Part shown: piece by piece, positions 9,276-48,213 of the stretch
Layout of the letters: each line of letters opens with the position of its first letter
Numbering within the stretch: the stretch's first letter is position 1
Assembly (NCBI RefSeq): GCF_035920445.1
Contig: NZ_CP109162.1
Location: forward strand, 1,054,001-1,118,000
Length of the DNA stretch: 64,000 bases
Source: Nocardia sp. NBC_01730
GTDB taxonomy: Bacteria > Actinomycetota > Actinomycetes > Mycobacteriales > Mycobacteriaceae
Direction of reading: 5' to 3'
Program-made: the position numbers and the translations under genes
The notes under the pieces: model-generated
What the model was told of the DNA's origin: nothing
Database searches by the model: none
The model's input: only the letters and a program-made list of their open reading frames with translations

Positions 9276-9362
9276 CTACTGACACCTGGCCGGCTGCGCG
9301 ATCGCGGCCGCCGTCCCGGCGAGGCCGCCGCCGACGACCAGGACTTTGTGTACGGCAGTCAC
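9276..9362 (-). pseudogene. Flavoprotein 5' fragment
   Basis: A GTG at 9362 with AAAGGAG upstream starts TAVHKVLVVGGGLAGTAAAIA, a Rossmann FAD-binding N-terminus (GGGLAG). After about 22 residues the similarity ends and a TAG follows at 9276. It is the first part of an FAD-dependent oxidoreductase gene with the rest lost. Confidence 0.6.
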
Positions 9363-9374
9363 TGGGACTCCTTT

Positions 9375-9451
9375 GTCGGGGTCGGTGGGGTCGTCGATGA
9401 CCGCCACCGTACAACCGAGGCTGTCCAGGACTCGCTGCTGCGCTTCGCTGA
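9375..9451 (-). repeat. 77-bp copy of monooxygenase 3' region
   Basis: The reverse complement matches 15904-15980, in the C-terminal part of the FAD monooxygenase at 14586-16166, with one mismatch (TGT for TGC). It encodes SEAQQRVLDSLGCTVAV and IDDPTDPD, then runs into the flavoprotein start. Upstream in the same frame (RSAVHSIRPVDTNGRVV) it may be more of a related monooxygenase. Confidence 0.9.
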
Positions 9452-9511
9452 CCACGCGCCCGTTGGTGTCGACCGGGCGGATGCTGTGCACCGCCGAGCG
9501 CTGCGGTGGTA

Positions 9512-10616
9512 TTGAACCGAAACTATTGGGTTTCCTCCAGGGTCGTGTAGCGGACGTGCGGCGCGCGGAAGTAGCCGCGGACGGTGTCGGGCTGGCGTTG
9601 GCGGCGATGCAGGAACCGGCGGGTTTCCCGGGCGAGGTCGTCGGTGGAGCGGGCGCGGGCGGCGTGGACGTGCCGTTCGACGTCGGCATTGAGGATCTCG
9701 TCTGGGTTGAGTTCGGGGCTGTAGCCAGGCATCAGGTGCAACTGGACGCGGTGGGCGTTTTCGGCCAGCCACGCAGTCACGGCCTTGCTGCGGTGCACCG
9801 GGTGTCGGTCGGCGATCACATGGACCTTGCATCCGGCTTGACGGGCCAGCCGATCCAGGAACGTAATGAAGACCTTCGCTGTGAACCGGCCGGTGAACAC
9901 CGAAAACCACAGTGCGCCACGAAAAGCGATGGCAGACATGATATTCACACGCAGGCGCTTGCTGTTGACCCGCACCAGCGGAGTGCTGCCCCTCGGTGCC
10001 CAGGACCGGCCGGGTGGAGCGGTGTCGCTGCGCAACCCGCACTGATCAGTCCACGCCACCACAGCGTTCTCGCCGCGGGCGCGTGCGACGATGGCGGGAT
10101 ACTCGACCTCCAGCCACTCGGCCACCTTCTCCGATTTCTGCCGGTAGGCCCGCCGCGCCGGGCGTTGCGGAGTGAACCCGTGGCGGCGCAGCCACTTGCC
10201 CACGCCCTGCTCGGTCATGACGACGCCGACGACCATGCGGATCAGCTCGGCGACCAGGACACGGGTCCACAACGGACCGCCGATCAACAACTCCTCAGGG
10301 GTGTAGTCGGCCATCGCGGTGAACAGCACCGCGCGGTCCTCGGCACTGATCGCCTCGCCCCGCCCGGTACGCGACTTGACCGGAGCGGCAAGCGATTCCC
10401 GCCCGCCAGCCTGGTACTTACGCCACCAGGTCCCCACCGACCGCTGCGAGACCCCGAACATCTCGGCAGCCTCGCGGTAGCCGCTCACCCGTCCCGACTC
10501 CAGCGCGGCCACCACCCGCAGCCGCACCACCTCCTGCGCAGCAGGCGACAACCGCCGCAGGTCCACATCACTCACACACGCTCAACGAACAAGGCAACGA
10601 AGAAGTTTCGGTTCAA
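9512..10616 (-). mobile_element. IS630-family insertion sequence
   Basis: A complete element of about 1.1 kb bounded by perfect 13-bp inverted repeats, TTGAACCGAAACT at 9512-9524 and its complement at 10604-10616. TA-containing dinucleotides flank both ends, as expected for the TA-targeting IS630/Tc1 superfamily. The transposase fills it, its stop codon overlapping the left repeat. It sits between monooxygenase fragments and an integrase-tail remnant. Confidence 0.85.
9523..10575 (-). CDS. IS630-family transposase
   Basis: A 350-residue transposase of IS9512-10616. N-terminal HTH (GYREAAEMFGVSQRSVGTWW), a winged-helix part (GVGKWLRRHGFTPQRP), then the DDE catalytic core: VVAWTDQCGLR, VHVIADRHPVHRS and YSPELNPDEILNADVER. 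Starts at GTG 10575. The frame is intact and the terminal repeats are perfect, so this is the element in the window most likely to be active. Confidence 0.95.
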   Translation of the reverse strand: MSDVDLRRLSPAAQEVVRLRVVAALESGRVSGYREAAEMFGVSQRSVGTWWRKYQAGGRESLAAPVKSRTGRGEAISAEDRAVLFTAMADYTPEELLIGGPLWTRVLVAELIRMVVGVVMTEQGVGKWLRRHGFTPQRPARRAYRQKSEKVAEWLEVEYPAIVARARGENAVVAWTDQCGLRSDTAPPGRSWAPRGSTPLVRVNSKRLRVNIMSAIAFRGALWFSVFTGRFTAKVFITFLDRLARQAGCKVHVIADRHPVHRSKAVTAWLAENAHRVQLHLMPGYSPELNPDEILNADVERHVHAARARSTDDLARETRRFLHRRQRQPDTVRGYFRAPHVRYTTLEETQ

Positions 10617-10919: not shown

Positions 10920-11606
10920 CTAGATCTTCAGCAATCCGTGGTGCTGTTCCACAGCTTTGATGGTGCGTTCGATGTCGCCGGCGATGATGGATTCGACAAG
11001 TTCGCTGTGGATGGCTACCCGGTGTTGGTAGTAGCCGGCGTCATCGGTGGGAGTTTCGGCGTCGGCGTGTGCCGACAGATCCTTGATGCAGGCTGTCATG
11101 CTCAGGTAGACCGCGCGGGCCATGTGGTTGGTGGTGATCTCGGCGATGCGTTCGTGTAGTTGCCAGTTGGCGCGCATGAACGCGTCGACGTCGGAGGTCG
11201 ACTGCTTGAGCTTGGAGAGCAAGGTGCGCAAGGCGACGATGTCGTCGGCGTCGCGGTGACGTGCCGCGTCGGTGTCGACGAGGAGTTCGAGGGCGTCGCG
11301 CACGGCGATGGCGTCGGCGACAGTAGTCGGTTGCTCGCGGACGGTCAGTAGGGTGTGTCGCAGACGAACGACGGGGCTCAGGTTGGCCACGAACAGTCCG
11401 CCGCCGCGCCCGGGCCGGATTTCGATGTTGCCCCGGTCGGCAAGCAGGCGAACCGCTTCGCTGACGGTGGAGCGCGCGAAGCCGGTCTGTTCGCGCAGTT
11501 CATCCATGGTGCCGACCCAGTCGCCCGCGCTGAGGCCACGATCGATGATCATCTGGGCGATGTTCGCCGCAAGTGCTTCTGCTCGTGTCTGTACCCCGTT
11601 AACCAC
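10920..11606 (-). CDS. GntR-family regulator (FadR/FCD type)
   Basis: A 228-residue repressor: winged helix at residues about 8-75 (ELREQTGFARSTVSEAVRLL) and an FCD all-helical ligand domain at about 95-220 (VRDALELLVDTDAARH, NWQLHERIAEITTNHMA). FCD members usually bind organic acids through a metal held by Asp and His residues. It starts at GTG 11606 and diverges from the amidohydrolase unit. The 15-bp inverted repeat found before both units of the following cluster is its likely operator. Confidence 0.9.
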   Translation of the reverse strand: MVNGVQTRAEALAANIAQMIIDRGLSAGDWVGTMDELREQTGFARSTVSEAVRLLADRGNIEIRPGRGGGLFVANLSPVVRLRHTLLTVREQPTTVADAIAVRDALELLVDTDAARHRDADDIVALRTLLSKLKQSTSDVDAFMRANWQLHERIAEITTNHMARAVYLSMTACIKDLSAHADAETPTDDAGYYQHRVAIHSELVESIIAGDIERTIKAVEQHHGLLKI

Positions 11607-11664
11607 TCGGGTAATTTACCAGAGATCGACATGATTCTGCAGTATTCGGACATTTAAACCTGAA

Positions 11665-11679
11665 AACCATCAAAAGGTT
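11665..11679. promoter_or_regulatory. AACC-N7-GGTT operator, unit 1
   Basis: AACCATCAAAAGGTT lies 67 bases before the amidohydrolase start, between it and the divergent gntR gene, followed by CGGATGTTATA. The same layout, AACC-N7-GGTT then CGGAGGTTTTA, precedes the monooxygenase unit. Likely a GntR-type operator over the promoter. Confidence 0.6.
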
Positions 11680-11746
11680 CGGATGTTATAGAGTGCGAGG
11701 GTGGCTCCGGTCACACAATCATGGATCTCGAATCGAGGAGGCAACG

Positions 11747-13120
11747 ATGTCACGAGTGGTGGTCAAAGGCGGAACGGTTGTCACCATGGAGCCGGGGCAG
11801 TCGCCGCAACGGGCGGATGTGCTGATCGAGGACGACAAGATCGTGGCGATCGAGCCTTCCATCACGGCCGATGCTGCGCTGATCGACGCCACCAACTGCG
11901 TCGTGGCACCAGGCCTTGTGGACACGCACCGGCATGTGTGGCAAGCGGGCCTTCGTGGTGTGACCGCCGACATGGTGTTGAAGGACTACTTCCGTAGCGT
12001 CCGTTTTCAGGCGTCGCCGGTCTATCGCCCCGAGGACATCGAGGTGGGCAATCTCGCCGGGATGCTCGAGGCGATCGACGCGGGGGTCACCAGCGTTCTG
12101 GACTTCTCCCATTCGATTTCCTCGCCCGATCACGCCGAGGCTGCCATCGACGGAACGATCGGCTCCGGGGGGCGCAGTCAGTTCGCTCTCGGATTCAATG
12201 ATGTTGTAGGCCAGCACAAGTCGCTCGACACAGCCCAGGGCCGCCTGCAACTGGCCGAATCTCTGCGGAAGGGCAGGCTGGCGGCGGACGACGCTCTGGT
12301 GACGCTGGGTATCGCGCTGTCGGATCTGCCGGAGGTCGGACTCGAGCGCATCCGCGCCGAGTTGGAGGGAGCGAGGAGGCTGGGATTGCGTAGCACCACC
12401 AACGCGCTGGCGATTCTCTTCAACGATCCCGTCGACGACATCGAGGTTCTGGACGGAGCGGGTTTGCTCGGTCCTGACATCGTCTGGGTGCACCTGAACT
12501 ACGCATCGGCAGAGCAGTTCCGTCGTGTCGTGGAGACCGGTGGTTCCGTGTCGACCTGCCCGGAAGCGGAAATGGCCATGGGTATAGGCCGTCCCGCAAC
12601 CGAGCGCGTGCTCGCCGCTGGCGGGCGCTGCACCCTGGGGTGTGACGTCACTACCTCGGTGTCGGGCAGTTTGTTGCAGCAGGCACGAACCGCGATGCAG
12701 GTCGGACGGCTGTTGGACGCCGACGAGCGTATGGCCACCGGCAAGGCGCCGTTGTCGGTTCCGCCGTCGTGCGAAACCATGCTGAAAGCGGCAACGATCT
12801 GGGGTGCGGAGGCGTTGGGGCAGTCGCATCGGATCGGTAGTCTGCGTCCTGGGAAGCAAGCCGACCTGATCGTCGTGCGAACCGACGCGGTGAACACCGC
12901 ACCGATGATCGATCCCTATGCGACGCTGATCACCCAGGCGCAACCGTCCAACATCGACACAGTCGTGATCGCGGGCGAGGTCCGCAAGTCCGGCGGCCGC
13001 CTGCGCGCGGACTGGTCGGCGGTGCAGAAGCGCTTGGAGCAGTCGAAAGAGCACGTGGCGCGTGCGGTCGCCGAACGCGGCGGGTTGCTGCCCCAGCCCG
13101 CGCTGGACCTGCCCTGGTGA
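11747..13120 (+). CDS. Amidohydrolase (chlorohydrolase/deaminase group)
   Basis: A 457-residue metal-dependent amidohydrolase of the TrzA/AtzA/guanine-deaminase group. Metal-binding HxH is DTHRHVW (His61, His63), a further His site is WVHLNYAS, and LGCDVTTS holds the Asp. The C-terminus GSLRPGKQADLIVV is the usual end of the composite beta domain. ATG 11747 follows GAGGAGGCAACG. First gene of unit 1, with cupin and cyclase-family hydrolase behind it. It probably removes an amine or hydrolyses a cyclic amide; substrate unknown. Confidence 0.85.
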   Translation: MSRVVVKGGTVVTMEPGQSPQRADVLIEDDKIVAIEPSITADAALIDATNCVVAPGLVDTHRHVWQAGLRGVTADMVLKDYFRSVRFQASPVYRPEDIEVGNLAGMLEAIDAGVTSVLDFSHSISSPDHAEAAIDGTIGSGGRSQFALGFNDVVGQHKSLDTAQGRLQLAESLRKGRLAADDALVTLGIALSDLPEVGLERIRAELEGARRLGLRSTTNALAILFNDPVDDIEVLDGAGLLGPDIVWVHLNYASAEQFRRVVETGGSVSTCPEAEMAMGIGRPATERVLAAGGRCTLGCDVTTSVSGSLLQQARTAMQVGRLLDADERMATGKAPLSVPPSCETMLKAATIWGAEALGQSHRIGSLRPGKQADLIVVRTDAVNTAPMIDPYATLITQAQPSNIDTVVIAGEVRKSGGRLRADWSAVQKRLEQSKEHVARAVAERGGLLPQPALDLPW

Positions 13121-13157
13121 TATCACCCGCTCATATCCGGATTCGGAGGAACCCCTC

Positions 13158-13532
13158 ATGCATCTGATTCGCGCGGCCCAGGCCGTCCCGTACCAGGCCC
13201 CCGGGCACGCCGGTGTCGACTCACGCCGCCTACAGGGGCGTGAGGCCGGTGGCCCGGACCGGGCATCGGTGTCGATCTCGACCTACCCCCCAGGGTCGGC
13301 GGTGGAGCCGTTGCCGACTGCGACGGACACGATCTACGTCGTGCTGACGGGTGAGCTCGAACTCAACGGCCATCTCGGCGATTCGGCGCTGACACTGGCC
13401 GAGCACGATTCGGTGTTCCTGCCTCGCGGCGAAGTCCGGTCCCTACGCAATCGGGCCGCCGAGAACGCCACGTTGCTCGTAGTCCTGCTGGCAGCAGTCG
13501 GAGGTGACGATGAGCAGCCTGCCCACCTATGA
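13158..13532 (+). CDS. Small cupin-domain protein
   Basis: A 124-residue single cupin (residues about 40-110: YPPGSAVEPLPTATDTIYVV, then HDSVFLPRGEVRSLRN). It lacks the classical two-His motif 1, so metal binding is uncertain. ATG 13158 after GGAGGA. Its end overlaps the following cyclase gene by 23 bases, so the two are translationally coupled. It may be an isomerase, a lyase or an accessory protein. Confidence 0.75.
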   Translation: MHLIRAAQAVPYQAPGHAGVDSRRLQGREAGGPDRASVSISTYPPGSAVEPLPTATDTIYVVLTGELELNGHLGDSALTLAEHDSVFLPRGEVRSLRNRAAENATLLVVLLAAVGGDDEQPAHL

Positions 13533-14463
13533 CGAATTGCCCGCGGCGCCCGACGGCGGCCGCAGCGGATGGGGCCTGTTCGGCGCCGATGACGAACTCG
13601 GCCTGATCAACCTGTTGACCCCACAGCGAGTGGCAGCCGCCGCGGCGTTGGTGCGCCGTGGAGCCCGGTTCCCGTTGGACGCGCCGTGGGGGATGTTCGA
13701 CCCGCCACTGAACAGTGCCCGTGGCAACCCCCGCCACCACGTGATCGCCCAGCCCGGCGGAATCGGGTTCGACGACGTGTGGGACAACGTCTATCCCCAG
13801 GCGGGCAGTCAGTGGGACTCGTTGGCGCACATCGGCTACAGCCGACAGTCGTACTACAACGGCGCGACCTCCGACGGGGTGCGTGCGGGCCGCAACGGGA
13901 TCGACAAATGGGCCGCGCGTGGCATCGCGGGACGCGGCATCGTCCTGGACATGCCTGCCGCCATGGCGGCACTCGGGCGCCCCTACGACCCGGGTGACAC
14001 GGTGGAATTCGGTCCCGAGGAATTGGAAGCCGCCCGCGAACTGGCGGCGGTCGAGTACCTGCCGGCCGACATCCTCGTGCTGCACACCGGTTTCGCGAAG
14101 TGGTACACCGGGCAGTCATTCGACACCCGCAAACAACTGCCGCGGCAACTGCGCGCGCCGGGATTGGCGCACAGCGAAGAGGTGTGTCGATACCTGTGGA
14201 ACACCCACGCTGCCGCGATCGCCTCCGACACCTTCGCGGTAGAGGCATGGCCCGCCGACACCAGCCCGGCCGCGGCACCGTTCGGGTTCATCCACCAGAT
14301 GCTCATCGGTAGTTTCGGTATGGCGCTGGGCGAGTTGTGGTGGCTCGACGACCTGGCCCGTGATTGTGCGGTGACCGGAGTCTACGAGGGCATGCTCGTC
14401 AGCGCTCCCAGTCCGGCGCCCGGCGGCATCGCCTCGGCGCCGAACGCCGTTTTCCTCAAATAA
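13510..14463 (+). CDS. Cyclase-family metal hydrolase
   Basis: A 317-residue member of the cyclase family (PF04199; relatives are kynurenine formamidase and isatin hydrolase). The metal site appears as SQWDSLAHIGY in place of the classical HxGTHxDxPxH, a variant common in larger members. GRGIVLDMPAA and DILVLHTGFAKWY are further family blocks. ATG 13510 preceded by GGAGGTGACG is preferred over GTG 13504. Last gene of unit 1. A truncated homologue lies at 33825. It likely opens a lactam, lactone or amide ring. Confidence 0.85.
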   Translation: MSSLPTYDELPAAPDGGRSGWGLFGADDELGLINLLTPQRVAAAAALVRRGARFPLDAPWGMFDPPLNSARGNPRHHVIAQPGGIGFDDVWDNVYPQAGSQWDSLAHIGYSRQSYYNGATSDGVRAGRNGIDKWAARGIAGRGIVLDMPAAMAALGRPYDPGDTVEFGPEELEAARELAAVEYLPADILVLHTGFAKWYTGQSFDTRKQLPRQLRAPGLAHSEEVCRYLWNTHAAAIASDTFAVEAWPADTSPAAAPFGFIHQMLIGSFGMALGELWWLDDLARDCAVTGVYEGMLVSAPSPAPGGIASAPNAVFLK

Positions 14464-14511
14464 GTGAACTGAACCGCTTGACACGTCCTTTGTGACACGC
14501 AACACTCATAA

Positions 14512-14526
14512 AACCGCTTAAAGGTT
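14512..14526. promoter_or_regulatory. AACC-N7-GGTT operator, unit 2
   Basis: AACCGCTTAAAGGTT, followed by CGGAGGTTTTA, lies 60 bases before the monooxygenase. It repeats the layout at 11665-11679. A second AACCGCTT half lies at 14472-14479. Likely site for the GntR regulator. Confidence 0.6.
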
Positions 14527-14585
14527 CGGAGGTTTTATGAATACTCTGGCCAACGGCAGCGGGACAACCGTGAGAAGGAGTGAAA

Positions 14586-16166
14586 GTGTCTGACCTTTAC
14601 GACGTCGTGGTCGTGGGCTACGGACCTTCGGGTGAGGTTGCCGCGTCGACTCTGGGTGGCCAGGGGCACCGGGTCGCGGTTTTCGAGCGGCACGAAGCGG
14701 TGTACCCGCTGCCTCGGATGGTGACCTTCGACGGCGAAGCGTGTCGCACTGTGCAGGCGACGGGCACCGATGTCAACAGGGCACTGTCGACATCGGTGGT
14801 CCTGGACGCGTGCCTGTTCGGTGACGCCGACGCCGACCCGTTGTTGACCGTGGACTGGACCGGCGAACAGTGTGGTTTCCCCGCCCACAATTCGATCTTC
14901 CAGCCCGATGTCGAGTCGACGCTGCGTGAGCGCGTCGACGCGATGGACACCGTCGATGTGTTCCGCGGGACCGAGGTGGTCGGGCTGGTCAATCACGACG
15001 ATCACGTCGAGGTGACCGTGCGGCCCAAGGGCTCGCACGAGGACCGGAACGCCTGGGTGGTGCGGGCGAAGTACGTGATCGGCGCCGATGGCACCAACAG
15101 TTTCGTGCGACAGGCCGCGGGTATCGAAATGACCGACTTCGGCATGCACGAGCGTTGGCTGAACTTCGACATGAACAAGAAGAAGCCGCTGCCCGAGCAG
15201 TTCGACAAGCTGATCATGATCATGGATCCCGCGCGCCCGCATATGTACATGCCGCTCGGCACCGATCGGCAGCGCTTCGAGATGCGCGTGGCCGACGACG
15301 AAACCGATGACCAGATGCACGACCCCGAGGTCGCTTGGGAGTTCCTGCGTTCCCGTCACGGTTTGGGGGAGGAACACTTCTCGATCTGCCGCCAGGTTGT
15401 CTACCACTACTACACGAAGGTGGCCAAGCGGTGGCGTGCCGGTCGGGTGTTCATCGCCGGAGACGCGGCACACACCATGACCCCCTACATGGGCCAGGGC
15501 GGTTGTTCGGCGATCCGCGACGGCCGCAACCTGGCATGGAAGCTGCACCTGGTTCTCAACGGGGTCGCCGAGGATCGGCTGCTCGATGAATACCAGATCG
15601 AACGCGAACCGCATGTCACAGAACTGGTGGTCACCAGCCACAAGCTCGCCGAGATCGTCAACATGGTCGACGAAGCCGAGGCCGCCGAGCGCAACTACGC
15701 GATGCGCAACAACCTCACCCCGCCGTTGCCGCCGTTCCCGAAACTGGCAAACGGGGTACTGCATCGCGAACCCGACGACACGGTGGCCACCATCACCGGC
15801 AGCCTTGCACCGCAAGGCCGGATTCGCCGCCACGGCTCACGGGCACGCGGCGACGATCTGCTCGGGCACGGTTTCCAATTGATCAGCCGCCGTTCCCCCC
15901 AGCTCAGCGAAGCGCAGCAGCGAGTCCTGGACAGCCTCGGTTGCACGGTGGCGGTCATCGACGACCCCACCGACCCCGACGCGATCGAAGACATCGACGG
16001 CGTCTATCGGGCATTCCTGGATGCCGCGGGCACCGACGCCTACATCATGCGCCCGGATTGGTACATCTTCGGCGTCGCCGCCGACGGCGCGATCGGTGAA
16101 CTCGTCGACGAACTCGCCGCGCGCCTGCACCTGTCCTCGATCACCGAGACCGCCCCCGCCGCATGA
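14586..16166 (+). CDS. MhpA-like FAD aromatic monooxygenase
   Basis: A 526-residue class A flavoprotein hydroxylase resembling 3-(3-hydroxyphenyl)propionate hydroxylase. Features in order: GYGPSG at 11-16, the R/K-rich substrate domain, GADGTNS, and the FAD ribityl motif AGDAAHTMTPYMGQGG, then a thioredoxin-like C-terminus. GTG 14586 has AAGGAG five bases upstream. A 77-base piece of its 3' end (15904-15980) also occurs at 9375-9451. First gene of unit 2; it probably adds hydroxyl to a phenolic or heteroaromatic ring. Soluble, NAD(P)H-dependent by family. Confidence 0.88.
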   Translation: MSDLYDVVVVGYGPSGEVAASTLGGQGHRVAVFERHEAVYPLPRMVTFDGEACRTVQATGTDVNRALSTSVVLDACLFGDADADPLLTVDWTGEQCGFPAHNSIFQPDVESTLRERVDAMDTVDVFRGTEVVGLVNHDDHVEVTVRPKGSHEDRNAWVVRAKYVIGADGTNSFVRQAAGIEMTDFGMHERWLNFDMNKKKPLPEQFDKLIMIMDPARPHMYMPLGTDRQRFEMRVADDETDDQMHDPEVAWEFLRSRHGLGEEHFSICRQVVYHYYTKVAKRWRAGRVFIAGDAAHTMTPYMGQGGCSAIRDGRNLAWKLHLVLNGVAEDRLLDEYQIEREPHVTELVVTSHKLAEIVNMVDEAEAAERNYAMRNNLTPPLPPFPKLANGVLHREPDDTVATITGSLAPQGRIRRHGSRARGDDLLGHGFQLISRRSPQLSEAQQRVLDSLGCTVAVIDDPTDPDAIEDIDGVYRAFLDAAGTDAYIMRPDWYIFGVAADGAIGELVDELAARLHLSSITETAPAA

Positions 16167-16218
16167 CCGGCCACGACACCGAACATCGTGTATCCCGCGC
16201 CCGCGTGAAAGGCTCACA

Positions 16219-17043
16219 GTGACAACCGTTCGTATCACGACCGACCTGGAGTTCGCCCGAGTCGACGATGTCTGCCTGACTCTCGACATCTACCGCCCGA
16301 CCTCGCAGACGAAGGCGGTTCCTGTCGTGCTGTACCTGCACGGCGGAGGCTGGCAGGTCGGTGACAAGACAGACGGCGCCAAGGAGCGGCTGACCGCCCT
16401 GGCCGAACGGGGGATCGCGATCGCCTCGGCCAACTACCGATTCGTCGGCCAAGGACTGTTCCCGGCTCAGATCCATGACACCAAAGCAGCGGTGCGTTGG
16501 CTGCGGGCCAACGGCGCCACCCACGGCCTGGCCACCGATCGCATCGGAATCTGGGGTGCCTCGGCCGGTGCGGTGCTGGCCAGCCTGACCGCGCTGACTG
16601 CGGGTGACAGCGATTTCGAAGGCACGGTCGGTGACCATCCGGAGCAATCCAGTGCCGTCGACGTCGCCGTGCACTGGTTCGGTCAAACCGACCTGCTCGC
16701 CAACAGTGCGCGCAGTTGGCTCGAACGTGACTTGCTCAAACCACCGTTCGAAGCTCCGCTGTTCGGCGTGGACGATCTGACCACGGTCCGCGAAGAAGCC
16801 CGAGCCGCGAGCCCGCTGACGCGTGTGCACGCAGACGCCCCGCCGTTCCTGATCGCCCACGGCGACCGGGATCGGATTACTCCCGCTTCCGAGAGTGTCG
16901 CGTTGCACGACGCGTTGGTGCGCGCCGGAGCCGAGTCGACGTTGCTGATGCTCGGCGGTGCGGGCCACGAAGGCCCCGAATTCGACCGGCCCGACCACCT
17001 CTCGCTCACCGCCGCGTTCCTCGCCGCGCACCTACACACGTAA
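16219..17043 (+). CDS. Alpha/beta hydrolase (esterase type)
   Basis: A 274-residue esterase of the hormone-sensitive-lipase/BD-FAE group: oxyanion motif HGGGW at 41-45, nucleophile GASAG with Ser115, Asp in AHGDRDRITP, His in GGAGHEGPE. GTG 16219 with AAAGG upstream. It sits between the hydroxylase and the FAH-family hydrolase, so it could cleave an ester or lactone intermediate. No signal peptide. Confidence 0.85.
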   Translation: MTTVRITTDLEFARVDDVCLTLDIYRPTSQTKAVPVVLYLHGGGWQVGDKTDGAKERLTALAERGIAIASANYRFVGQGLFPAQIHDTKAAVRWLRANGATHGLATDRIGIWGASAGAVLASLTALTAGDSDFEGTVGDHPEQSSAVDVAVHWFGQTDLLANSARSWLERDLLKPPFEAPLFGVDDLTTVREEARAASPLTRVHADAPPFLIAHGDRDRITPASESVALHDALVRAGAESTLLMLGGAGHEGPEFDRPDHLSLTAAFLAAHLHT

Positions 17044-17053
17044 GGACCGGTCC

Positions 17054-17905
17054 ATGCGACTCATCGGAATGCGCACCCCCGGCGATACCACCACCTACAT
17101 CGGGCGGCTCGACGGCGACGATCACGTCCTTCCCGTGACCGACGTCGCCACCTTCTGGTCCGATACCGAATCCTGGATCGCCAAAGCGACCGAACTGACC
17201 GACGGCCGGCGCCGCCTGGACTCGGTCGAACAGCGTCCTGCGGTCCCCGACTCCGCACGGGTGATCTGCATCGGATTGAACTACAAGGCACACGCGGCCG
17301 AAGGCTCGTTCCAGGTCCCGCAATTCCCCACCCTGTTCGGTAGGTGGACCTCGTCGCTGACCGTCAGCGGAACCTCGGCGCCGGTTCCGGCGGGCGAAGC
17401 GGGTCTGGACTGGGAGGGGGAGGTCGCCGCCTACGTCGGCGCATCGCTATGCGAGACCGACCCCGACACCGCGCGCGCCGCGGTCCTGGGGTATTCGACC
17501 TTCAACGATCTCACCGCGCGCAAAGCCCAGAAACTCACGGCGCAATGGACATTGGGTAAGAACGGCGATCGCAGCGGCCCGATGGGGCCGATAGTCACCG
17601 TTGACGAGGTCGGGGACCTGCGCGACGGACTCGGCGTGCGGACCCGCGTCAACGGGACTCTGGTCCAAGACGGCAACACCCGCGACATGATCTTCGACAT
17701 CGGGCACGTTCTCGCGTTGATCAGCGAGACCTTCACCCTCAATCCCGGCGATGTCATCGCCACCGGCACACCGGAAGGTGTCGGCTACGTACGCAACCCT
17801 CCGTGGCTGTTGCAGCCCGGTGACGTCGTGGAAGTCGAGATCGATCGACTGGGGATCCTGACGACCCCGATCGTCGACGCCGCCGCGCGCCGCGGCGACT
17901 ACTGA
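17054..17905 (+). CDS. FAH-family hydrolase
   Basis: A 283-residue fumarylacetoacetate-hydrolase-fold protein. The metal-binding ExE is LDWEGEVA (Glu121, Glu123), with FNDLTARKAQ and the C-terminal block GDVIATGTPEGVGY. Members cleave C-C bonds of 1,3-diketo acids, hydrate dienoates or decarboxylate oxaloacetate. It follows the esterase by ten bases. Probably a ring-fission product hydrolase in this pathway. Confidence 0.88.
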   Translation: MRLIGMRTPGDTTTYIGRLDGDDHVLPVTDVATFWSDTESWIAKATELTDGRRRLDSVEQRPAVPDSARVICIGLNYKAHAAEGSFQVPQFPTLFGRWTSSLTVSGTSAPVPAGEAGLDWEGEVAAYVGASLCETDPDTARAAVLGYSTFNDLTARKAQKLTAQWTLGKNGDRSGPMGPIVTVDEVGDLRDGLGVRTRVNGTLVQDGNTRDMIFDIGHVLALISETFTLNPGDVIATGTPEGVGYVRNPPWLLQPGDVVEVEIDRLGILTTPIVDAAARRGDY

Positions 17906-17952
17906 CCGAATCCGGCGCGGGCACACACCCGCCTGAACGAACGGAGATTCTC

Positions 17953-19458
17953 GTGGTCGACGACCATGTGCCAACCATCGCCCATTGGGTCGACGGCAAA
18001 CCCTATTCCGGAACTGCCACCGCCACCGCACCGGTCACCGACCCGGCCACCGGTGCGGTCACCGGCCGCGTCGCTCTGGCGAGTACGCAGGACACCCGCA
18101 CGGTCATCGAGGCCGCGGCCGCGGCCTTCCCTGCGTGGCGCGACACCTCGCTGTCACGGCGAACCGAGATCCTGTTCCGATTCCGCGAACTGCTCAACCA
18201 GCGCAAACCGGAATTAGCGCGGATCATCACCGGTGAACACGGAAAAGTCGTCTCCGACGCACTCGGCGAAGTCAGCCGGGGCCAAGAGGTCGTCGAATTC
18301 GCTTGTGGCATAGCGCATCTGCTGCGCGGTGGAATGACCGAGAACGCGTCGACCAATGTCGATGTCGCCTCGATCCGCCAGCCTCTCGGGCCGGTCGCGA
18401 TCATCAGCCCGTTCAACTTTCCCGCGATGGTGCCGATGTGGTTCTTCCCGATCGCCATCGCCGCGGGAAACACCGTCGTGCTCAAGCCCTCGGAAAAGGA
18501 CCCCTCCGCGGCACTGTGGATGGCTCGATTGTGGTCGGAGGCGGGCCTGCCCGATGGCGTGTTCAACGTCGTCAACGGCGACAAGACCGCCGTCGACGAA
18601 CTGCTGACCAATCCGTCGGTGAAGGCCGTATCGTTCGTCGGCTCCACTCCCATTGCCGAATACGTCTATCGCACCGCCACCGCGGCCGGTAAACGCGTGC
18701 AGGCGCTGGGCGGGGCCAAGAACCACGCGATCGTCCTGCCCGACGCCGATCTGGATCTGGCCGCCGACGCCGCGGTCAACGCCGCTTTCGGTTCCGCGGG
18801 CGAACGATGCATGGCCATCTCCGCCCTCGTCGCGGTCGGCGGCATCGGCGACGAACTCGTCGCCAAGATCGAAGAACGGAGCCGAACCCTGCGGATCGGC
18901 GCCGGCGTCCGAGACAACGACATGGGCCCGCTGATCACCGCTGCCCACCGCGACAAGGTCGCCTCCTACATCGACGCGGGCGAGCACAGCGGAGCAGCGG
19001 TCGTGCTCGACGGCCGCTCGGTCGAGGCCGACGGGGGAGCCGACGGGTTCTGGCTCGGACCGACAATCCTCGATCACGTGACGCCGGACATGAGCGTCTA
19101 CACCGACGAGATCTTCGGCCCGGTGCTCTCGGTCCTGCGCGTGAACAGCTACGACGAGGCATTGGAACTGGTCAACGCCAGCCCCTACGGCAACGGCACC
19201 GCGATCTTCACCAACGACGGCGGCGCGGCGCGGCGCTTCCAGAACGAAGTCGAGGTCGGAATGGTCGGCATCAACGTGCCGATCCCGGTGCCGGTGGCCT
19301 ACTACAGCTTCGGTGGTTGGAAGAACTCGCTGTTCGGTGATTCGCACGCCCACGGCGCCGAAGGCGTCGGGTTCTTCACCCGCGGCAAAGTCGTGACCAC
19401 CCGCTGGTTGAACCCGTCCCACGGCGGACTCAACCTCGGATTCCCGCAAACCAGCTGA
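17953..19458 (+). CDS. mmsA: MmsA-type CoA-acylating semialdehyde dehydrogenase
   Basis: A 501-residue aldehyde dehydrogenase of the methylmalonate/malonate-semialdehyde group, which forms acyl-CoA with NAD and CoA. Catalytic Cys286 is in SAGERCMAIS, and the usual general-base Glu is replaced (ALGGAKNHAIV), the hallmark of the CoA-acylating branch. SPFNFPAMVPMWFFP is the MmsA signature. GTG 17953. In this operon it implies a (methyl)malonate-semialdehyde-like intermediate giving acetyl- or propionyl-CoA. Confidence 0.92.
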   Translation: MVDDHVPTIAHWVDGKPYSGTATATAPVTDPATGAVTGRVALASTQDTRTVIEAAAAAFPAWRDTSLSRRTEILFRFRELLNQRKPELARIITGEHGKVVSDALGEVSRGQEVVEFACGIAHLLRGGMTENASTNVDVASIRQPLGPVAIISPFNFPAMVPMWFFPIAIAAGNTVVLKPSEKDPSAALWMARLWSEAGLPDGVFNVVNGDKTAVDELLTNPSVKAVSFVGSTPIAEYVYRTATAAGKRVQALGGAKNHAIVLPDADLDLAADAAVNAAFGSAGERCMAISALVAVGGIGDELVAKIEERSRTLRIGAGVRDNDMGPLITAAHRDKVASYIDAGEHSGAAVVLDGRSVEADGGADGFWLGPTILDHVTPDMSVYTDEIFGPVLSVLRVNSYDEALELVNASPYGNGTAIFTNDGGAARRFQNEVEVGMVGINVPIPVPVAYYSFGGWKNSLFGDSHAHGAEGVGFFTRGKVVTTRWLNPSHGGLNLGFPQTS

Positions 19459-19528
19459 CAACTATTCGCTCATACCGCCGTCTGTCGCCGCGACACCGCG
19501 GCGCAGGCACGGAAGGATCGATAACCCG

Positions 19529-21064
19529 ATGTCCAATCACGTGTCGGTGCGCTCACCGGTCCAGACGCTGCTGTCGGAACTCTTCGACAGCGCCACCCTG
19601 AGGACCTGGCACACCGCACTCGCCCCGGTCGACCCCGGCCCCGAATACGCAAGGCGGCTGGCGGACGCACGCGCCAAGACCGGCCTGGACGAGTCGATCG
19701 TGGCCGGTGAAGCGCAGTTGCACGGCCACCGCCTGGCAGTCCTGGCCTGCGAGTTCGAATTCCTGGCCGGTTCGATCGGCGTCGCCGCCGCCGAGCGGCT
19801 CGTGACCACGATCGAACGGGCCACGCGCGAGCGCCTTCCACTGCTCGCGGTCACCGCCTCCGGCGGCACGCGAATGCAGGAAGGGGCACTGGCATTCGTT
19901 CAGATGGTCAAGATCGCGGCAGCCATCTCCGACCACAAACGAGCAGGACTTCCCTTCCTGGTCTATCTGCGTCACCCGAGCACCGGAGGGGTCTACGCCT
20001 CCTGGGCGTCGATGGGGCACCTCACCTTCGCCGAACCCGACGCCCTCATCGGATTCCTGGGACCGCGCGTCGTGCGCGCACTGACCGGAGCGTCGCTGCC
20101 CGACCACGTCCAACGGGCGGAGAATCTGCGCGACCACGGACTGATCGACGCGGTCCTCACCCCGAGTGAACTACCGAGCATGCTGAGCAGGATTCTCGAT
20201 CTACACGACCGCCCGATCGAGGAAATCACCGCGACACCGCCGGCGGTCGATACCCCGGCACGGCCCCAGCGTCCCGATAGTTGGCAATCGGTGCTCACCT
20301 CACGCAAGCCCGACCGGCTCAGCGCACGGCAACTGTTACACACGGCGACGACCTCGGCCGTGATGTTGAACGGCAGTGCCGAAGGCGATGCCGCTGACCA
20401 GATCACGACGATGATCGCCCGAGTGGGCGGCCTCGGTTGCGTTCTGATCGGCTACACCGAGCATCCCGAGATCACATCCGGGATCAGCGTCTCGGATATC
20501 CGCACCGCCCGGCGCGCGATCAGGGTGGCCCAGGACTTCGCACTGCCCGTGGTGACGATCATCGACACCTCGGGGGCGCAACTGAGCGCGGACGCCGAAG
20601 AGCACGGGATCGCCGGTCAGATCGCTCGGTGCATGACCGAACTGGTCACCCTCACCACAGCGACGGTCTCGGTCCTGCTCGGCCGCGGCACCGGCGGCGC
20701 CGCACTCGCGTTGCTACCCGCCGACCGTGTGATCGCCACCGAATACGCGTGGCTGAGCCCCCTGGCTCCGGAAGGAGCGAGCATGCTCGTCCACCACGAT
20801 CTCGACCACGCTCCTCAGGCGGCAGCCGAACTCGGCATCGATTCGTCGGTGCTGGCAGAGCACGGAATAGTCGACATCATCGTCGGCGCAGGCCACGGTT
20901 CGACCGAGTCCCTGTCAGCGGCGCTGCGCGCGGCGATCGAAAGCCAACTGCACGAGTTGCACCGCCAGACCGCCACCGATCGCTACACCGAGCGGCGACG
21001 GCGCTACCGCATGCTCGGCCTGCGCCCCACCCCATCCCTCTCCTCTCCGCAGAACAGGAGCTGA
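19529..21064 (+). CDS. Fused AccD/AccA-like carboxyltransferase
   Basis: A 511-residue carboxyltransferase with an AccD-like half (SGGTRMQEGALAFVQMVKI, GGVYASWASMGHLTFAEPDA) and an AccA-like half (GRGTGGAALALLPADRVI, WLSPLAPEGAS). Its family moves CO2 between carboxybiotin and acyl-CoA. No intact biotin carboxylase or biotin carrier is in the operon; the pyruvate-carboxylase scrap at 24172 cannot serve. It may work with subunits encoded elsewhere or act as a biotin-dependent or -independent decarboxylase of malonyl-type thioesters. The N-terminal zinc Cys cluster of housekeeping AccD is not seen. Confidence 0.82.
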   Translation: MSNHVSVRSPVQTLLSELFDSATLRTWHTALAPVDPGPEYARRLADARAKTGLDESIVAGEAQLHGHRLAVLACEFEFLAGSIGVAAAERLVTTIERATRERLPLLAVTASGGTRMQEGALAFVQMVKIAAAISDHKRAGLPFLVYLRHPSTGGVYASWASMGHLTFAEPDALIGFLGPRVVRALTGASLPDHVQRAENLRDHGLIDAVLTPSELPSMLSRILDLHDRPIEEITATPPAVDTPARPQRPDSWQSVLTSRKPDRLSARQLLHTATTSAVMLNGSAEGDAADQITTMIARVGGLGCVLIGYTEHPEITSGISVSDIRTARRAIRVAQDFALPVVTIIDTSGAQLSADAEEHGIAGQIARCMTELVTLTTATVSVLLGRGTGGAALALLPADRVIATEYAWLSPLAPEGASMLVHHDLDHAPQAAAELGIDSSVLAEHGIVDIIVGAGHGSTESLSAALRAAIESQLHELHRQTATDRYTERRRRYRMLGLRPTPSLSSPQNRS

Positions 21065-21068
21065 CACG

Positions 21069-22199
21069 ATGCCCGCAATGTACGAGGCTCCACAGACCGC
21101 GACCACCATGCTGGTCACCGCCATGGGCTTGATCGACACCTTCGACCCCACCCAGCGCGGGGCAGCGATCATCGAGGACTTCAACGATCCTCGGCGTCTC
21201 GAGTGGGACATCATCCCGCGACCCGACCGCACCGGCGTACCGCTGCACATGCTCGATCGCCACCAGCGCGTACTGGTGTGGGATCTGATCCGGCAGGCAC
21301 TGCCGCAGCGCACCTTCACCAAGGTCCTGGCCATCCCGCAGCTCGAACATGTTCTGCGCGACTACGAACACGACTTCCTCGGCCCGGCACTGCAAACCTG
21401 GCGCTCCTCGGAGTCCTACTATCTGACCTTCTTCGGCCACCCCGGTTTCGAGGACACCTGGACGCTGAGATTCCTGGGCCACCACGTCTGCCTCAACATC
21501 ACAGTCGTCGAACAACGTTGGATCTCGGCGACCCCATGCGCGCTGGGCCAGCAACCCACCGAATACAGCGGAGTACTGCACCCCCTCGCAGACGACGAAG
21601 GACTCGGCTTCGAACTCCTGGCCACCCTCGACGACGACCAGCGAAACCGAGCGGTCATCCACGCCATAGCTCCCGCGGACTTCGTCACCCGCCAGGTGCC
21701 CAAAATCGGCGCCTACGAATACCCCGACCGCTACGACCTCGGCATGCCCGACTACGTCATCACCGACCCCGACCGTGCCGCACTGAAATTCGTCAAGGAT
21801 CACCCATCCGGCATCGCCGGAACCGACCTGGACGAATCCCAACAACACATCCTGTGGCGACTGGTCGACTGCTACCTGGAACGGCTCCCGAACGAGACCG
21901 CAGAACAACAACGAAAACTGTTGCGCGACCACGGCATCGGCGAGGTCCACTTCGCATGGGCCGGTGAGCAGACCCGCGGTCGACCGCACTACTTCCGCGT
22001 ACAGACCCGCCACCACCTGATCGAAGCGGTGAACTCCGTCGCCGGCGGCAACCACCTGCACACCGTCCTGCGCGACTTCGACAACGACCTCGCCGCAGGC
22101 ATCCTCGACGGCCACGCCGATGCCGATTCGCAGTGGGGCACAGCGCATCTTGCCAGCCGCACAGTGTCCAGTGCCGAACTCGACCCCGGATTGGGTTAG
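21069..22199 (+). CDS. DUF3500-family protein
   Basis: A 376-residue soluble protein of unknown function. Family-typical blocks are LRFLGHHVCLNITVVEQRW, SATPCALGQQPTEYSGVLHP and GFELLATLDDDQRNRAVIH, with conserved His and Arg residues that suggest an enzyme. ATG 21069 lies five bases after the carboxyltransferase stop, so it is firmly in the operon. No signal peptide or membrane helix. Its place between a carboxyltransferase and an acyl-CoA ligase suggests a catabolic step, but I cannot name a reaction. Confidence 0.8.
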   Translation: MPAMYEAPQTATTMLVTAMGLIDTFDPTQRGAAIIEDFNDPRRLEWDIIPRPDRTGVPLHMLDRHQRVLVWDLIRQALPQRTFTKVLAIPQLEHVLRDYEHDFLGPALQTWRSSESYYLTFFGHPGFEDTWTLRFLGHHVCLNITVVEQRWISATPCALGQQPTEYSGVLHPLADDEGLGFELLATLDDDQRNRAVIHAIAPADFVTRQVPKIGAYEYPDRYDLGMPDYVITDPDRAALKFVKDHPSGIAGTDLDESQQHILWRLVDCYLERLPNETAEQQRKLLRDHGIGEVHFAWAGEQTRGRPHYFRVQTRHHLIEAVNSVAGGNHLHTVLRDFDNDLAAGILDGHADADSQWGTAHLASRTVSSAELDPGLG

Positions 22200-22283
22200 C
22201 CCGACACCGAATGGACCCCGCAGCACGAGCCACCCGTCACTGTCGTCGCCGGATCGCCTCCGGCCCAACCGTCAGGAACAGAA

Positions 22284-23693
22284 ATGCCCCGACCACTGCT
22301 GACGTCGCTCTACCGCGACGACCGCACCGATCGCCCCATCGTGACGGTCGGTGAACAGTCGATGCACAAAGAAGATCTGCTCCTCGCGGGCGCCGCGGTG
22401 GCCGATCGGATCGCAGGCGCAAAGATCGTCGCGATCGACGCCACCGCCGGAATCGACACCGTCATCGCCGTGGTGGGCTGCCTGCTCGCGGGAGTCACCG
22501 CGGTACCGGTGCCCTCCGACTCCGGAATCGCCGAACGACGCCACATCCTCGCCGACTCCCGCGCCGAACTGTGGATCGGTCCCCGCCACGACGACCTCAC
22601 CATCGTGTCCCTGACCGTGGACAGTAACGCCCGGTCCTCGGCCACCTACCCCGAACCCGACCCGAACCTACCGGCCTTGATCATCTACACCTCCGGAACC
22701 ACCGGATCCCCGAAAGGTGTCGTTGTCTCGCGCCGTGCCATCGCCGCCTGCCTGGACTCGGTAGCGCAGGCATGGCAGTGGAACGCTGAAGACACGCTCG
22801 TACAAGGGCTTCCGCTGTTCCACATCCACGGACTGATCCTGGGCGTCCTCGGCGCACTGCGCATCGGTTCCCCGCTGGTGCACACCGTGCGTCCCGACCC
22901 GAAGCGATACGCCGCGGCCGCGGGAACGCTGTACTTCGCAGTACCCACAGTGTGGTCGCGGGTATGTGCCGACCCGGTCTCGGCGAGGATACTGGCCGGT
23001 GCCCGGCTGCTGGTGTCGGGCAGCGCCCCGCTGCCGATCCAGGTCTTCGAGGGACTGCGCGAACTTACCGGCATCGCGCCGATCGAACGGTACGGGATGA
23101 CCGAAACACTGATCACCGTGAGCACGCGATACGACGGGGAACGCCGACCAGGATGGGTCGGGCTGCCCCTCGACGGAGTCCGAACCCGGCTCCGCACCGA
23201 AGCCGGCGAGTTGGCACCACACGACGGAAAGACACTGGGGCAACTCGAGATCAGCGCACCGACACTGTTCGACGGCTACCTCGACCAACCCGACAAGACC
23301 GCCGAGGTCACCACCGGCGACGGATGGTTCAGCACCGGCGACATCGCCGTGATCGATGCCGAGGGCTTCCACCGCATCGTCGGACGCGAATCGGTGGACA
23401 TGATCAAGTCCGGCGGATACCGCATCGGCGCGGGCGAGGTCGAGCAAGCGCTACTTGAACACCCCGCGGTCGTGGAAGCCGCCGTCATCGGCGTGCACGA
23501 CGCCGACCTAGGACAACGCATCATCGCCTACGTCGTCGGTGACACCGTCGACCAGCCCGAACTCATCGACTTCGTCGCGACGAATCTGTCGATCCACAAA
23601 CGTCCCAGGGAAATTCGCGTCGTCGACCACCTGCCGAAGAACGCGATGGGCAAGATCCAGAAGAAGATATTGGCGCAGCAGCACCACACCTGA
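22284..23693 (+). CDS. Malonyl-CoA-synthetase-like acyl-CoA ligase
   Basis: A 469-residue AMP-forming ligase. A3 motif IIYTSGTTGSPKG, A5 IERYGMTETL, A7 WFSTGDIAVI, A8 GRESVDMIKSGGYRIGAGEVE, and catalytic Lys in KNAMGKIQKK. The short N-terminal domain and the GGYRIGAGEVE block are typical of MatB-type ligases, which activate malonate or methylmalonate. ATG 22284. With MmsA and the carboxyltransferase it points to a dicarboxylate-CoA end to the pathway. Confidence 0.85.
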   Translation: MPRPLLTSLYRDDRTDRPIVTVGEQSMHKEDLLLAGAAVADRIAGAKIVAIDATAGIDTVIAVVGCLLAGVTAVPVPSDSGIAERRHILADSRAELWIGPRHDDLTIVSLTVDSNARSSATYPEPDPNLPALIIYTSGTTGSPKGVVVSRRAIAACLDSVAQAWQWNAEDTLVQGLPLFHIHGLILGVLGALRIGSPLVHTVRPDPKRYAAAAGTLYFAVPTVWSRVCADPVSARILAGARLLVSGSAPLPIQVFEGLRELTGIAPIERYGMTETLITVSTRYDGERRPGWVGLPLDGVRTRLRTEAGELAPHDGKTLGQLEISAPTLFDGYLDQPDKTAEVTTGDGWFSTGDIAVIDAEGFHRIVGRESVDMIKSGGYRIGAGEVEQALLEHPAVVEAAVIGVHDADLGQRIIAYVVGDTVDQPELIDFVATNLSIHKRPREIRVVDHLPKNAMGKIQKKILAQQHHT

Positions 23694-23942: not shown

Positions 23943-24171
23943 CCGCGATCGACTGATTCGAGGCGACCGCACGTTCAGTGGCCGTCGCGGGCCCGTTCAT
24001 CGAGTATCTGTCGCCGACGGCGTTGTCTCATCAGCGTGGATACCACGGCGGCGATCCTGGCCGGGGTCGTCCGATTCCGTTGCAGCATCGAACGGTTCGC
24101 ACGTTGGTGTGACCGTATTTCCGTTACCGGCGCGATGACCGTGCCCCGATTCGACAAGGTCGACCGACGAA

Positions 24172-24405
24172 TGTTCTCGAAAGCCTTGGTTGCCAATCGC
24201 GGCGAGATCGCCATCCGCGCCTTCCGCGCAGCAGTCCCGTTCGTCAGGGTTTCGTCCGCCGCGGCGTGTGCGCGCGAAAGCATCACCTTCATCGGACCTC
24301 GCGGCCCCGTTCGCGGGCGTGGTCACCCTGTCGGTCTCCGAAGGCGACGCGATCAGCGCGGGCGACACCATCGCCACCATCGAGGCCATGAATATGGAAG
24401 CCGCG
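24172..24405 (+). pseudogene. pyc: Collapsed pyruvate carboxylase gene
   Basis: ATG 24172 begins MFSKALVANRGEIAIRAFRAA, the exact N-terminal pattern of pyruvate carboxylase. After a few residues it reads ACARESITFIGP, a block normally about 80-100 residues into the biotin carboxylase domain. At about 24297 the frame changes and the sequence is APFAGVVTLSVSEGDAISAG then DTIATIEAMNMEAA, the biotinyl domain at the far C-terminus. About 1000 codons are missing between. The biotin-accepting Lys of the MKM motif is Asn. The gene is dead. Confidence 0.85.
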
Positions 24406-24568
24406 CAGGAAGTCGAGAAGAGGCGAAAGTGTAGTGGCCCCGTCGATGAATTCGTTTGTAGTGGTGCAAGTTTCCCCTGCACACAGGTCGGCCGAATTCT
24501 TGACGAGTAGACGGCAATTGGCCACAGATCACGCGGTAATGTCGGCACCATGACCAGCGGTGATGCAT

Positions 24569-25091: not shown

Positions 25092-25958
25092 TCAGTTGAT
25101 GCTGCAGGCCACGGGGTGGTGGGTGTGGCTGCAGCGGGCAGCGTACTCGGCAGGGGTCAGATAGCCCAGCGCCGAATGCCGATGCCGTCGGTTGTGTTCG
25201 TCCTTGAAGTCGCCGATCACGACGCGGGCCTCGAGCAGGCTCGTCCAGTGGTTGCGGTTGAGGCACTCGCTGCGTAACCGCCGGTTGAACGATTCGATAT
25301 GGCCGTTGTTCCACGGCGTGCCGGGCGGGATATAGACGATCCCTACCCGGTCGGCGCAGAACTGTTGCAGCGCATGGGAAATCATTTCAGGACCGTTGTC
25401 CATACGCAGCACCTTCGGTGGCCCAGCGCGCGCGGTGAACACCTCCTGCAACTCGGCCACCAGCCGCTCGGCGGTGATCGAGCGCTCCACCAGGTGAAGC
25501 AGCGATTCACGGGTGTGCTCGTCGATCATCGAAGCGATCTTCACCGCGCGCCCATCCGTGGTGGAGTCGAACTGAAAGTCCAACGCCCACACCACCTTCG
25601 GTGCATCCGCATCAACCAGCGGCGTAGTCGAGCACCCCGCCCGCTTGCGTGGCGAGTGCGCCCGCACCTGCAAGCCTTCCTCCCGCCAGAGCCGGTGCAC
25701 CCTCTTCTTGTTCACCTGCGAGCCCTCATCGAACCGCAGCGCCGCCCACGCACGCCGGAACCCGTGCCCTTGATGTTTCGTGGCATAGGAACGCAGCCAG
25801 ACCCGCAACCCGACATCCGGATCGGCGGGGGTCTGCGCAGCTGGCAGCTGCCGATACGTGGACCGATGCAGCCCAACCACCTTGCACGCGAACCGTTCCG
25901 ACATGCCCATCACCTGTTTGAGCATGTCAACAGCCCGCCGCTTGCTGGCCGGGCCTAA
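25092..25958 (-). CDS. IS3 transposase OrfB
   Basis: Catalytic part of the IS3 transposase. From ATG 25925 (LKQVMGMSERFACKVVGL) it has the HTH_21 region, then the rve core: VWALDFQFDS, VLRMDNGPEM, and GHIESFNRRLRSECLNR with the Glu. The frame opens already at 25958, and orfA can reach it by a -1 slip on AAAATTTT just before the orfA stop, giving the OrfAB fusion typical of IS3. Intact. Confidence 0.93.
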   Translation of the reverse strand, partial: LGPASKRRAVDMLKQVMGMSERFACKVVGLHRSTYRQLPAAQTPADPDVGLRVWLRSYATKHQGHGFRRAWAALRFDEGSQVNKKRVHRLWREEGLQVRAHSPRKRAGCSTTPLVDADAPKVVWALDFQFDSTTDGRAVKIASMIDEHTRESLLHLVERSITAERLVAELQEVFTARAGPPKVLRMDNGPEMISHALQQFCADRVGIVYIPPGTPWNNGHIESFNRRLRSECLNRNHWTSLLEARVVIGDFKDEHNRRHRHSALGYLTPAEYAARCSHTHHPVACSIN

Positions 25959-44238: not shown

Positions 44239-44254
44239 AATCGAGGAGTTTGAC

Positions 44255-47480: not shown

Positions 47481-47496
47481 CGCATTGTTCTGTGCG

Positions 47497-48190: not shown

Positions 48191-48213
48191 GATGACATAG
48201 AGGGTGGTTAGCA

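Follow-up and report, generated by a model that had tools for sequence, protein, structure and literature searches.

A Nocardia gene cluster joining DUF3500, an FAH-family hydrolase, and malonate enzymes, and its likeness to the fungal tetrahydroxybenzene pathway

Martins et al. are said to have described in 2024 an Aspergillus gene cluster with a monooxygenase, an FAH-like gene, a DUF3500 gene, and a short protein. Here, we analyzed a cluster of comparable content in a 64,000-nucleotide stretch of Nocardia sp. NBC_01730 (contig NZ_CP109162.1, positions 1,054,001 to 1,118,000; hereafter, the window). In Aspergillus nidulans, the DUF3500 protein AN10530, a putative dioxygenase, is proposed to convert 1,2,3,5-tetrahydroxybenzene (THB) to 5-hydroxydienelactone (excerpts of PMC12388069). 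Fungal DUF3500 is likewise presented as the proposed THB ring-cleavage enzyme in PMC12388069 and PMC13094099, and a 2026 paper treats the THB pathway as apparently restricted to fungi. On balance, we favor reading the Nocardia cluster as one regulon for the aerobic breakdown of a polyhydroxylated benzene and as a bacterial counterpart of the fungal THB pathway, a reading in which we infer the substrate and every catalytic step.

The genome carrying the window is a single contig of 8,676,891 bases. Ten plus-strand genes lie downstream of a divergent GntR/FCD regulator, with intergenic gaps of -23 to 116 bp. Gene identity and a shared operator-like element were obtained directly, as follows.

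10920-11606, minus strand: GntR/FCD regulator, divergent from the cluster (PF07729 and PF00392 above cut-off; relatives with 48-56% identity near FAH or DUF3500 in other loci)
11673-11690, plus strand: operator-like element, copy 1 (AAAGGTTCGGATGTTATA), 18 bp, before the amidohydrolase
11747-13120, plus strand: amidohydrolase, PRK08204 subfamily (HxH motif present; 75% identity to the Nonomuraea gerenzanensis counterpart)
13158-13532, plus strand: small cupin protein, 124 aa (PF07883; relatives with 31-62% identity near monooxygenase, FAH, or ligase in other DUF3500 loci)
13510-14463, plus strand: cyclase-family (kynurenine-formamidase-like) hydrolase (PF04199; 80.5% identity to the N. gerenzanensis counterpart)
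14506-14540, no strand assigned: operator-like element, copy 2, with its 18-bp part at 14520-14537, before the hydroxylase; overlaps a perfect 10-bp inverted repeat (TCATAAAACC/GGTTTTATGA)
14580-16166, plus strand: MhpA-like FAD aromatic hydroxylase/monooxygenase, PRK06183 subfamily (490.6 bits, cut-off 390; PF01494)
about 16216-17043 (candidate start codon), plus strand: alpha/beta hydrolase, BD-FAE (PF20434, 180 bits)
17054-17905, plus strand: FAH-family hydrolase of the DUF3500-linked subfamily (H80/E83 and E121, E123, D152 kept)
17956-19458, plus strand: MmsA, CoA-acylating (methyl)malonate-semialdehyde dehydrogenase (TIGR01722, 689.9 bits, cut-off 448.5; GERC motif from residue 282)
19529-21064, plus strand: fused AccD-AccA carboxyltransferase (PF01039 and PF03255; without the CxxC zinc-ribbon motif)
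21069-22199, plus strand: DUF3500 protein, proposed ring-opening enzyme (PF12006, 226.5 bits, cut-off 27.2; supported by tree and model)
22284-23693, plus strand: MatB-like malonyl-CoA ligase, PRK07787 (713.9 bits, cut-off 575; best solved match 3nyq, 422 bits)

The co-conservation of DUF3500, FAH, and the hydroxylase was observed directly in other genomes. PF12006 was present in 146 of 397 genomes of the order. We took 80 regions from the PF12006 matches listed, covering almost every one of the strongest and a part, chosen by hand, of the weaker ones, and scanned 5 kb on each side of DUF3500 with profiles built in this analysis. Removal of L079, L081, L082, and L083 (repeats of L032, L033, L035, and L036) and of the fragments L089 and L043 reduced 114 DUF3500 frames to 108 on the tree, among which L037 and L038 are identical copies within one genome. 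The trees were quick ones with Shimodaira-Hasegawa-like approximate likelihood-ratio (SH-aLRT) support only and carried long-branch warnings. In the clade of the window, all 15 DUF3500 genes had an FAH gene within 5 kb, and 14 of 15 had an FAD hydroxylase; a distant clade, clade A, gave 36 of 36 and 34 of 36, respectively. Among the remaining DUF3500 genes on the tree, FAH was found within the same distance in 4 of 57. To place the FAH label on the tree took 5 changes, where shuffled labels averaged 36.3 and none of 500 shuffles was as low; near-copies inflate this contrast. With 14 FAH genes in this 8.68-Mb genome, we estimate that FAH would stand near DUF3500 by chance at about 2 in 100 per locus. 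DUF3500 residues H138, H139, H329, H331, R335, and D340 were kept in at least 44 of 45 rows. Co-conservation of MmsA, the fused carboxyltransferase, the amidohydrolase, and the cyclase-family gene was weaker than that of this core, and a small cupin gene was identified within 5 kb in 7 of 15 window-clade rows and in 0 of 36 clade-A rows.

Other arrangements of DUF3500 were also seen. On three alphaproteobacterial plasmids (L041, L046, and L049), an FAH-less DUF3500 gene precedes a hypothetical gene encoding about 180 residues, with PadR- or TetR-type regulators close to DUF3500 in L041 and L049. At L111, two nearby DUF3500 frames flank a ligase-like gene (28%), with no FAH within 5 kb.

The specificity of the FAH subfamily was likewise obtained directly. 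FAH proteins beside both DUF3500 clades formed one clade (50 rows plus L045 of Paraburkholderia, support 99) outside which the 11 own-genome paralogs used all fell, with L087 as the sole exception. Three loci (L085, L086, and L182) combine a DUF3500 of the window clade with an FAH that groups with those of clade A. In the reverse direction, the window FAH had 47 matches (own included) at E <= 1e-60, spread over 43 of the 397 genomes of the order that were sampled, about one in nine; 40 of these matches lie no more than 5 kb from a DUF3500 gene. Residues H80, E83, E121, E123, D152, and K169 were kept in all 50 subfamily rows, and by analogy with FAHD1 we take H80/E83 to be the hydrolase dyad and E121, E123, and D152 to be metal-binding. 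Solved relatives of the window FAH include 8gsr, an L-2,4-diketo-3-deoxyrhamnonate hydrolase, which splits a 2,4-diketo acid. That they share an FAH subfamily points to ring-cleavage products of one kind from the two DUF3500 lineages.

Another FAH gene occurs twice in the genome (window 31679-32737, minus strand, and G000:C1:8351224-8351841), with 100% identity over 282 compared columns, which suggests a recent duplication.

The 18-bp element AAAGGTTCGGAKGTTWTA occurred exactly twice in the 64-kb window (shuffles, mean 0.00), and the form AAAGGTTCGRRKGTT was found genome-wide (8.68 Mb) only at the two cluster sites; its reversed pattern had 0 occurrences in the whole genome. Since the element is confined to these sites, one before the amidohydrolase and one before the hydroxylase, the two units are most likely controlled together. 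The earlier note on this DNA had described two co-directed units, and an element before each agrees with that division. It had also counted ten enzyme genes behind one GntR regulator: all genes were recovered at the coordinates listed, but the small cupin is not shown to be an enzyme. A scan for sigma-70 type promoters gave nothing above chance. The GntR protein is predicted to bind the element. With at most 1 mismatch, the element was identified at 7 of 55 FAH-linked DUF3500 loci versus 0 of 52 loci without FAH: it stands before the hydroxylase in Gordonia (L035, L037, and L038), before DUF3500 in L085 and L086 (genomes G305 and G553), between GntR and FAH in L152, and, in the window, before both the amidohydrolase and the hydroxylase. 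We regard the cluster as a real, coherent catabolic regulon with a core that recurs across actinobacteria.

Nonomuraea gerenzanensis carries much of this gene set in two places. One locus (L199) encodes GntR, amidohydrolase, cyclase-family hydrolase, hydroxylase, alpha/beta hydrolase, and MmsA in the window order at 63-80% identity, with a family III CoA-transferase after MmsA; in the 31 kb read there, no match to the cupin, FAH, DUF3500, carboxyltransferase, or ligase was found. On the same replicon, 4.7 Mb away, lie a DUF3500 gene (about 80% identical to those of clade A), a GntR gene (56% to that of the window), and an FAH gene (57%), with a fused AccD-AccA gene (45%) immediately behind FAH. 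The element is present at both loci, before the hydroxylase with 0 mismatches (L199:14941) and between GntR and FAH with 1 mismatch (L200:9632). This suggests that the two halves form one regulon; genes that Nonomuraea apparently co-regulates in trans would then be joined in cis in the window. The earlier note had named a lack of co-conservation in other genomes as refuting its reading. For the DUF3500-FAH-hydroxylase core, co-conservation is far above chance, so this refutation fails; it holds in part for MmsA, the amidohydrolase, and the cyclase-family gene, which in Nonomuraea make up a module of their own.

In the pathway that we propose, the amidohydrolase, the cyclase-family enzyme, and the alpha/beta hydrolase may trim or open precursors, which is the weakest part of the scheme. 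The MhpA-like enzyme would hydroxylate a phloroglucinol-type ring to THB, and DUF3500 would cleave THB between vicinal hydroxyls (C1-C2), giving, by our own derivation, 2,4-dihydroxymuconate, the enol of 2,4-dioxoadipate (malonylpyruvate). A lactone possibly lies on the way, as a candidate substrate of the small cupin. The FAH protein, as an acylpyruvase, would split 2,4-dioxoadipate into pyruvate and malonate; the MatB-type ligase would convert malonate to malonyl-CoA, and the fused carboxyltransferase would decarboxylate malonyl-CoA to acetyl-CoA, while MmsA could dispose of malonate semialdehyde as a side product. Release of pyruvate and malonate by FAH would account for both a malonyl-CoA-ligase-like enzyme and a carboxyltransferase acting on malonyl-CoA.

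The ligase is closest among solved structures to the malonyl-CoA ligase 3nyq, with 4fuq following at 217 bits. It fails the PRK07514 malonyl-CoA synthase cut-off (313 bits vs 558) and passes PRK07787, 'acyl-CoA synthetase'. A relative with 67% identity adjoins DUF3500 in three loci of two Gordonia genomes, and a second ligase, 64% identical, is encoded elsewhere in the Nocardia genome. Both carboxyltransferase halves are present in the fused AccD-AccA protein, which scores below the accD equivalog cut-off (194.6 bits vs 317.45), its match beginning at profile position 63; no CxxC was found among its 3 cysteines in total. The equivalog cut-offs of MdcD and MdcE, from the biotin-independent malonate decarboxylase, are also missed (TIGR03133, 43 bits vs 278; TIGR03134, 23 bits vs 237). 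The earlier note saw a single catabolic system controlled by one GntR, in which a hydroxylase, a presumed ring-opening step, and FAH lead to malonyl-CoA; gene context and the best ligase match, 3nyq, support this view.

More tentatively, and with less confidence than we place in the reading above, the window and its relatives may represent a bacterial central ring-cleavage pathway in which DUF3500 is a new class of enzyme that opens a polyhydroxylated benzene ring and FAH a malonylpyruvate hydrolase. Malonate would be used in the window through MatB-type activation and a biotin-free fused AccD-AccA decarboxylase, all within one GntR regulon.

Several observations weigh against the proposed pathway. 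The hydroxylase was absent within 5 kb in 2 of 36 clade-A rows and 1 of 15 window-clade rows, and the Nonomuraea hydroxylase module has neither DUF3500 nor FAH beside it. Clades without FAH separate the window clade from clade A on the DUF3500 tree, which leaves the common FAH as the main ground for assuming one function. Seven of the 47 FAH matches lie more than 5 kb from DUF3500 (G026, G012, G080, G233:C211, and G304:C138 without a nearby DUF3500; G118:C125 at 10.8 kb; and G101 at 12.7 kb), the DUF3500-adjacent FAH proteins of L044, L048, L159, and L087 fall outside the special clade, and the FAH tree included just 12 FAHs not adjoining DUF3500. The window-type DUF3500 is patchy: any match at E <= 1e-20 was confined to 15 of 401 genomes from the family and to 12 of 396 from the phylum. 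Sites of the element were identified in just 7 of the 55 FAH-linked loci, many of which are without GntR within 5 kb. In the malonate branch, few loci have the ligase near DUF3500. The carboxyltransferase was found nowhere but in the window and at a single Nonomuraea locus, apart from two contigs where its linkage is deduced. MmsA fits less well, having no place in the core chemistry, and the small cupin could itself be an oxygenase. Finally, fungal DUF3500 is likened here by description, and no fungal sequence occurred among the matches listed or the loci retrieved.

Just one DUF3500 structure has been solved, 9x86 (Amc20/ApmL), and its title names a dehydratase, which also counts against ring opening by this domain. 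Alternatively, the same regulon may use DUF3500 as a dehydratase, hydratase, or lyase, the ring being opened by the flavoprotein, the small cupin, or an enzyme encoded elsewhere. We consider this unlikely, although it is the best-placed alternative. The 9x86 structure is closer to clades without FAH (L108, 202 bits; L104, 183 bits) than to the window (90 bits) or clade-A L093 (72 bits), and the fungal work proposes ring cleavage by DUF3500. The cupin was near none of the clade-A genes, and profile scans of the ten genes matched no known extradiol dioxygenase family and, the cupin fold aside, no ring-opening oxygenase family, which argues against another cluster enzyme as ring opener.

The place of MmsA immediately after FAH in the window would fit a different chemistry, in which a hydroxyquinol-type ring is opened beside its hydroxyls to 2,4,6-trioxohexanoate (again our derivation), FAH releases pyruvate and malonate semialdehyde, and MmsA forms acetyl-CoA. 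A Rhodococcus opacus plasmid (pRho-VOC14-C342, L201) groups an amidohydrolase, a class III extradiol dioxygenase, MmsA (50%), and FAH (50% identity) in one stretch, and since an extradiol dioxygenase stands there with MmsA and FAH, a possible sister pathway may run through malonate semialdehyde. For the window itself we find the hydroxyquinol route improbable: it has no use for the malonyl-CoA ligase or the carboxyltransferase, and MmsA in Nonomuraea goes with the amidohydrolase/hydroxylase module, not with FAH. At E 1e-10, MmsA was also not matched in other window-clade loci, bar a 115-residue, 37% match in L089, where DUF3500 is broken.

Still less probable is an N-heterocycle or N-acylated ring as substrate, with deamination by the amidohydrolase, hydroxylation and ring opening by the flavoprotein in the manner of known flavoprotein oxygenases for N-heterocycles, and amide hydrolysis by the cyclase-family enzyme. 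The amidohydrolase profile matches largely deaminases and chlorohydrolases, and in Nonomuraea this gene stays with those of the cyclase-family hydrolase, hydroxylase, alpha/beta hydrolase, and MmsA. However, no dedicated amino-group enzyme is among the ten genes, the amidohydrolase and cyclase-family genes are missing from most DUF3500-FAH loci, and the hydroxylase passes the cut-off of the hydroxyphenylpropionate-hydroxylase subfamily. The N-containing substrate of the earlier note is not supported, as only the amidohydrolase and cyclase-type hydrolase families speak for nitrogen.

That unrelated genes gathered by chance between insertion sequences, as transposase genes on both flanks (9526-10575 and 25095-25925) and gene fragments close by might indicate, is scarcely credible, and for the core the DUF3500 tree, the reverse FAH search, and the genome-wide count of the element already refute it. 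Against it stand the tight gaps, the two element copies with none elsewhere in the genome, the recurrence of the core in many genomes, and close relatives in two other assemblies (DUF3500, 91% and 83%; AccD-AccA, 83% and 60%; cyclase, 91% and 85%), which the equal lengths of their contigs (763,578 bp in Nocardia sp. A7, and 14,191 bp) suggest are on shared contigs.

Further features were identified around the cluster. A fragment at 24036-24431 (plus strand) matches the biotin-carboxylase N-terminal domain (PF00289, 26.7 bits), and the sequence downstream resembles a biotinyl-domain end with the lysine codon altered; this is probably what remains of a pyruvate carboxylase gene that has lost most of its length. 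At 9276-9689 (minus strand), adjoining the transposase gene at 9526-10575, 39 residues are 67% identical to the cluster FAD hydroxylase, perhaps the relic of a second copy. A second catabolic block (44231-52731) contains a weak homogentisate-dioxygenase match (44231-45445), a fumarylacetoacetase with both domains (46275-47477), FAH genes at 48214-49230 and 51763-52731, and an AMP-dependent ligase (49688-51763).

If the proposed pathway is correct, it would be common in actinobacteria and open to genetics, since Rhodococcus and Gordonia have orthologs of DUF3500 and FAH and a regulator-operator pair is at hand as a candidate. A function would then be assigned to a domain that has none so far and whose sole solved member bears another name. 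The pathway would also add a class of ring-opening enzymes relevant to how lignin syringyl units and tannins are degraded, and it would explain malonate-handling genes within an aromatic catabolic cluster.

Compared with described systems, Amc20/ApmL belongs to the biosynthesis of the antibiotic amipurimycin, is called a dehydratase, and is nearer the FAH-less clades, whereas the window cluster is catabolic. The Mhp (3-(3-hydroxyphenyl)propionate) pathway shares with the window a PRK06183-subfamily hydroxylase and an FAH-fold enzyme downstream, but the window's ten genes have no match to a known extradiol dioxygenase family. MatB-type malonate use shares a ligase whose best solved match is a malonyl-CoA ligase; where a malonyl-CoA decarboxylase would be expected, the window has the fused AccD-AccA, a presumed decarboxylase. 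The Nonomuraea L199 module has the same gene order and the element before the hydroxylase, but its DUF3500, FAH, and carboxyltransferase lie 4.7 Mb away. The earlier note knew no named pathway with this gene set, and none was found for bacteria in the literature searched; yet the fungal THB pathway matches it in DUF3500, FAH, and monooxygenase, so the kind of system is already known, though in fungi. Both, going by the reported fungal gene content, cluster an FAD monooxygenase, an FAH-like hydrolase, and DUF3500. The conserved short protein of the fungal cluster is reported to have no known domain; in part of the window clade, a 124-aa cupin protein recurs. Beyond the fungal cluster, the window, which is bacterial, has GntR, a MatB-type ligase, the fused carboxyltransferase, MmsA, the amidohydrolase, and the cyclase-family hydrolase. 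The THB-type pathway, described so far only in fungi, probably has a bacterial counterpart enlarged by a malonate branch.

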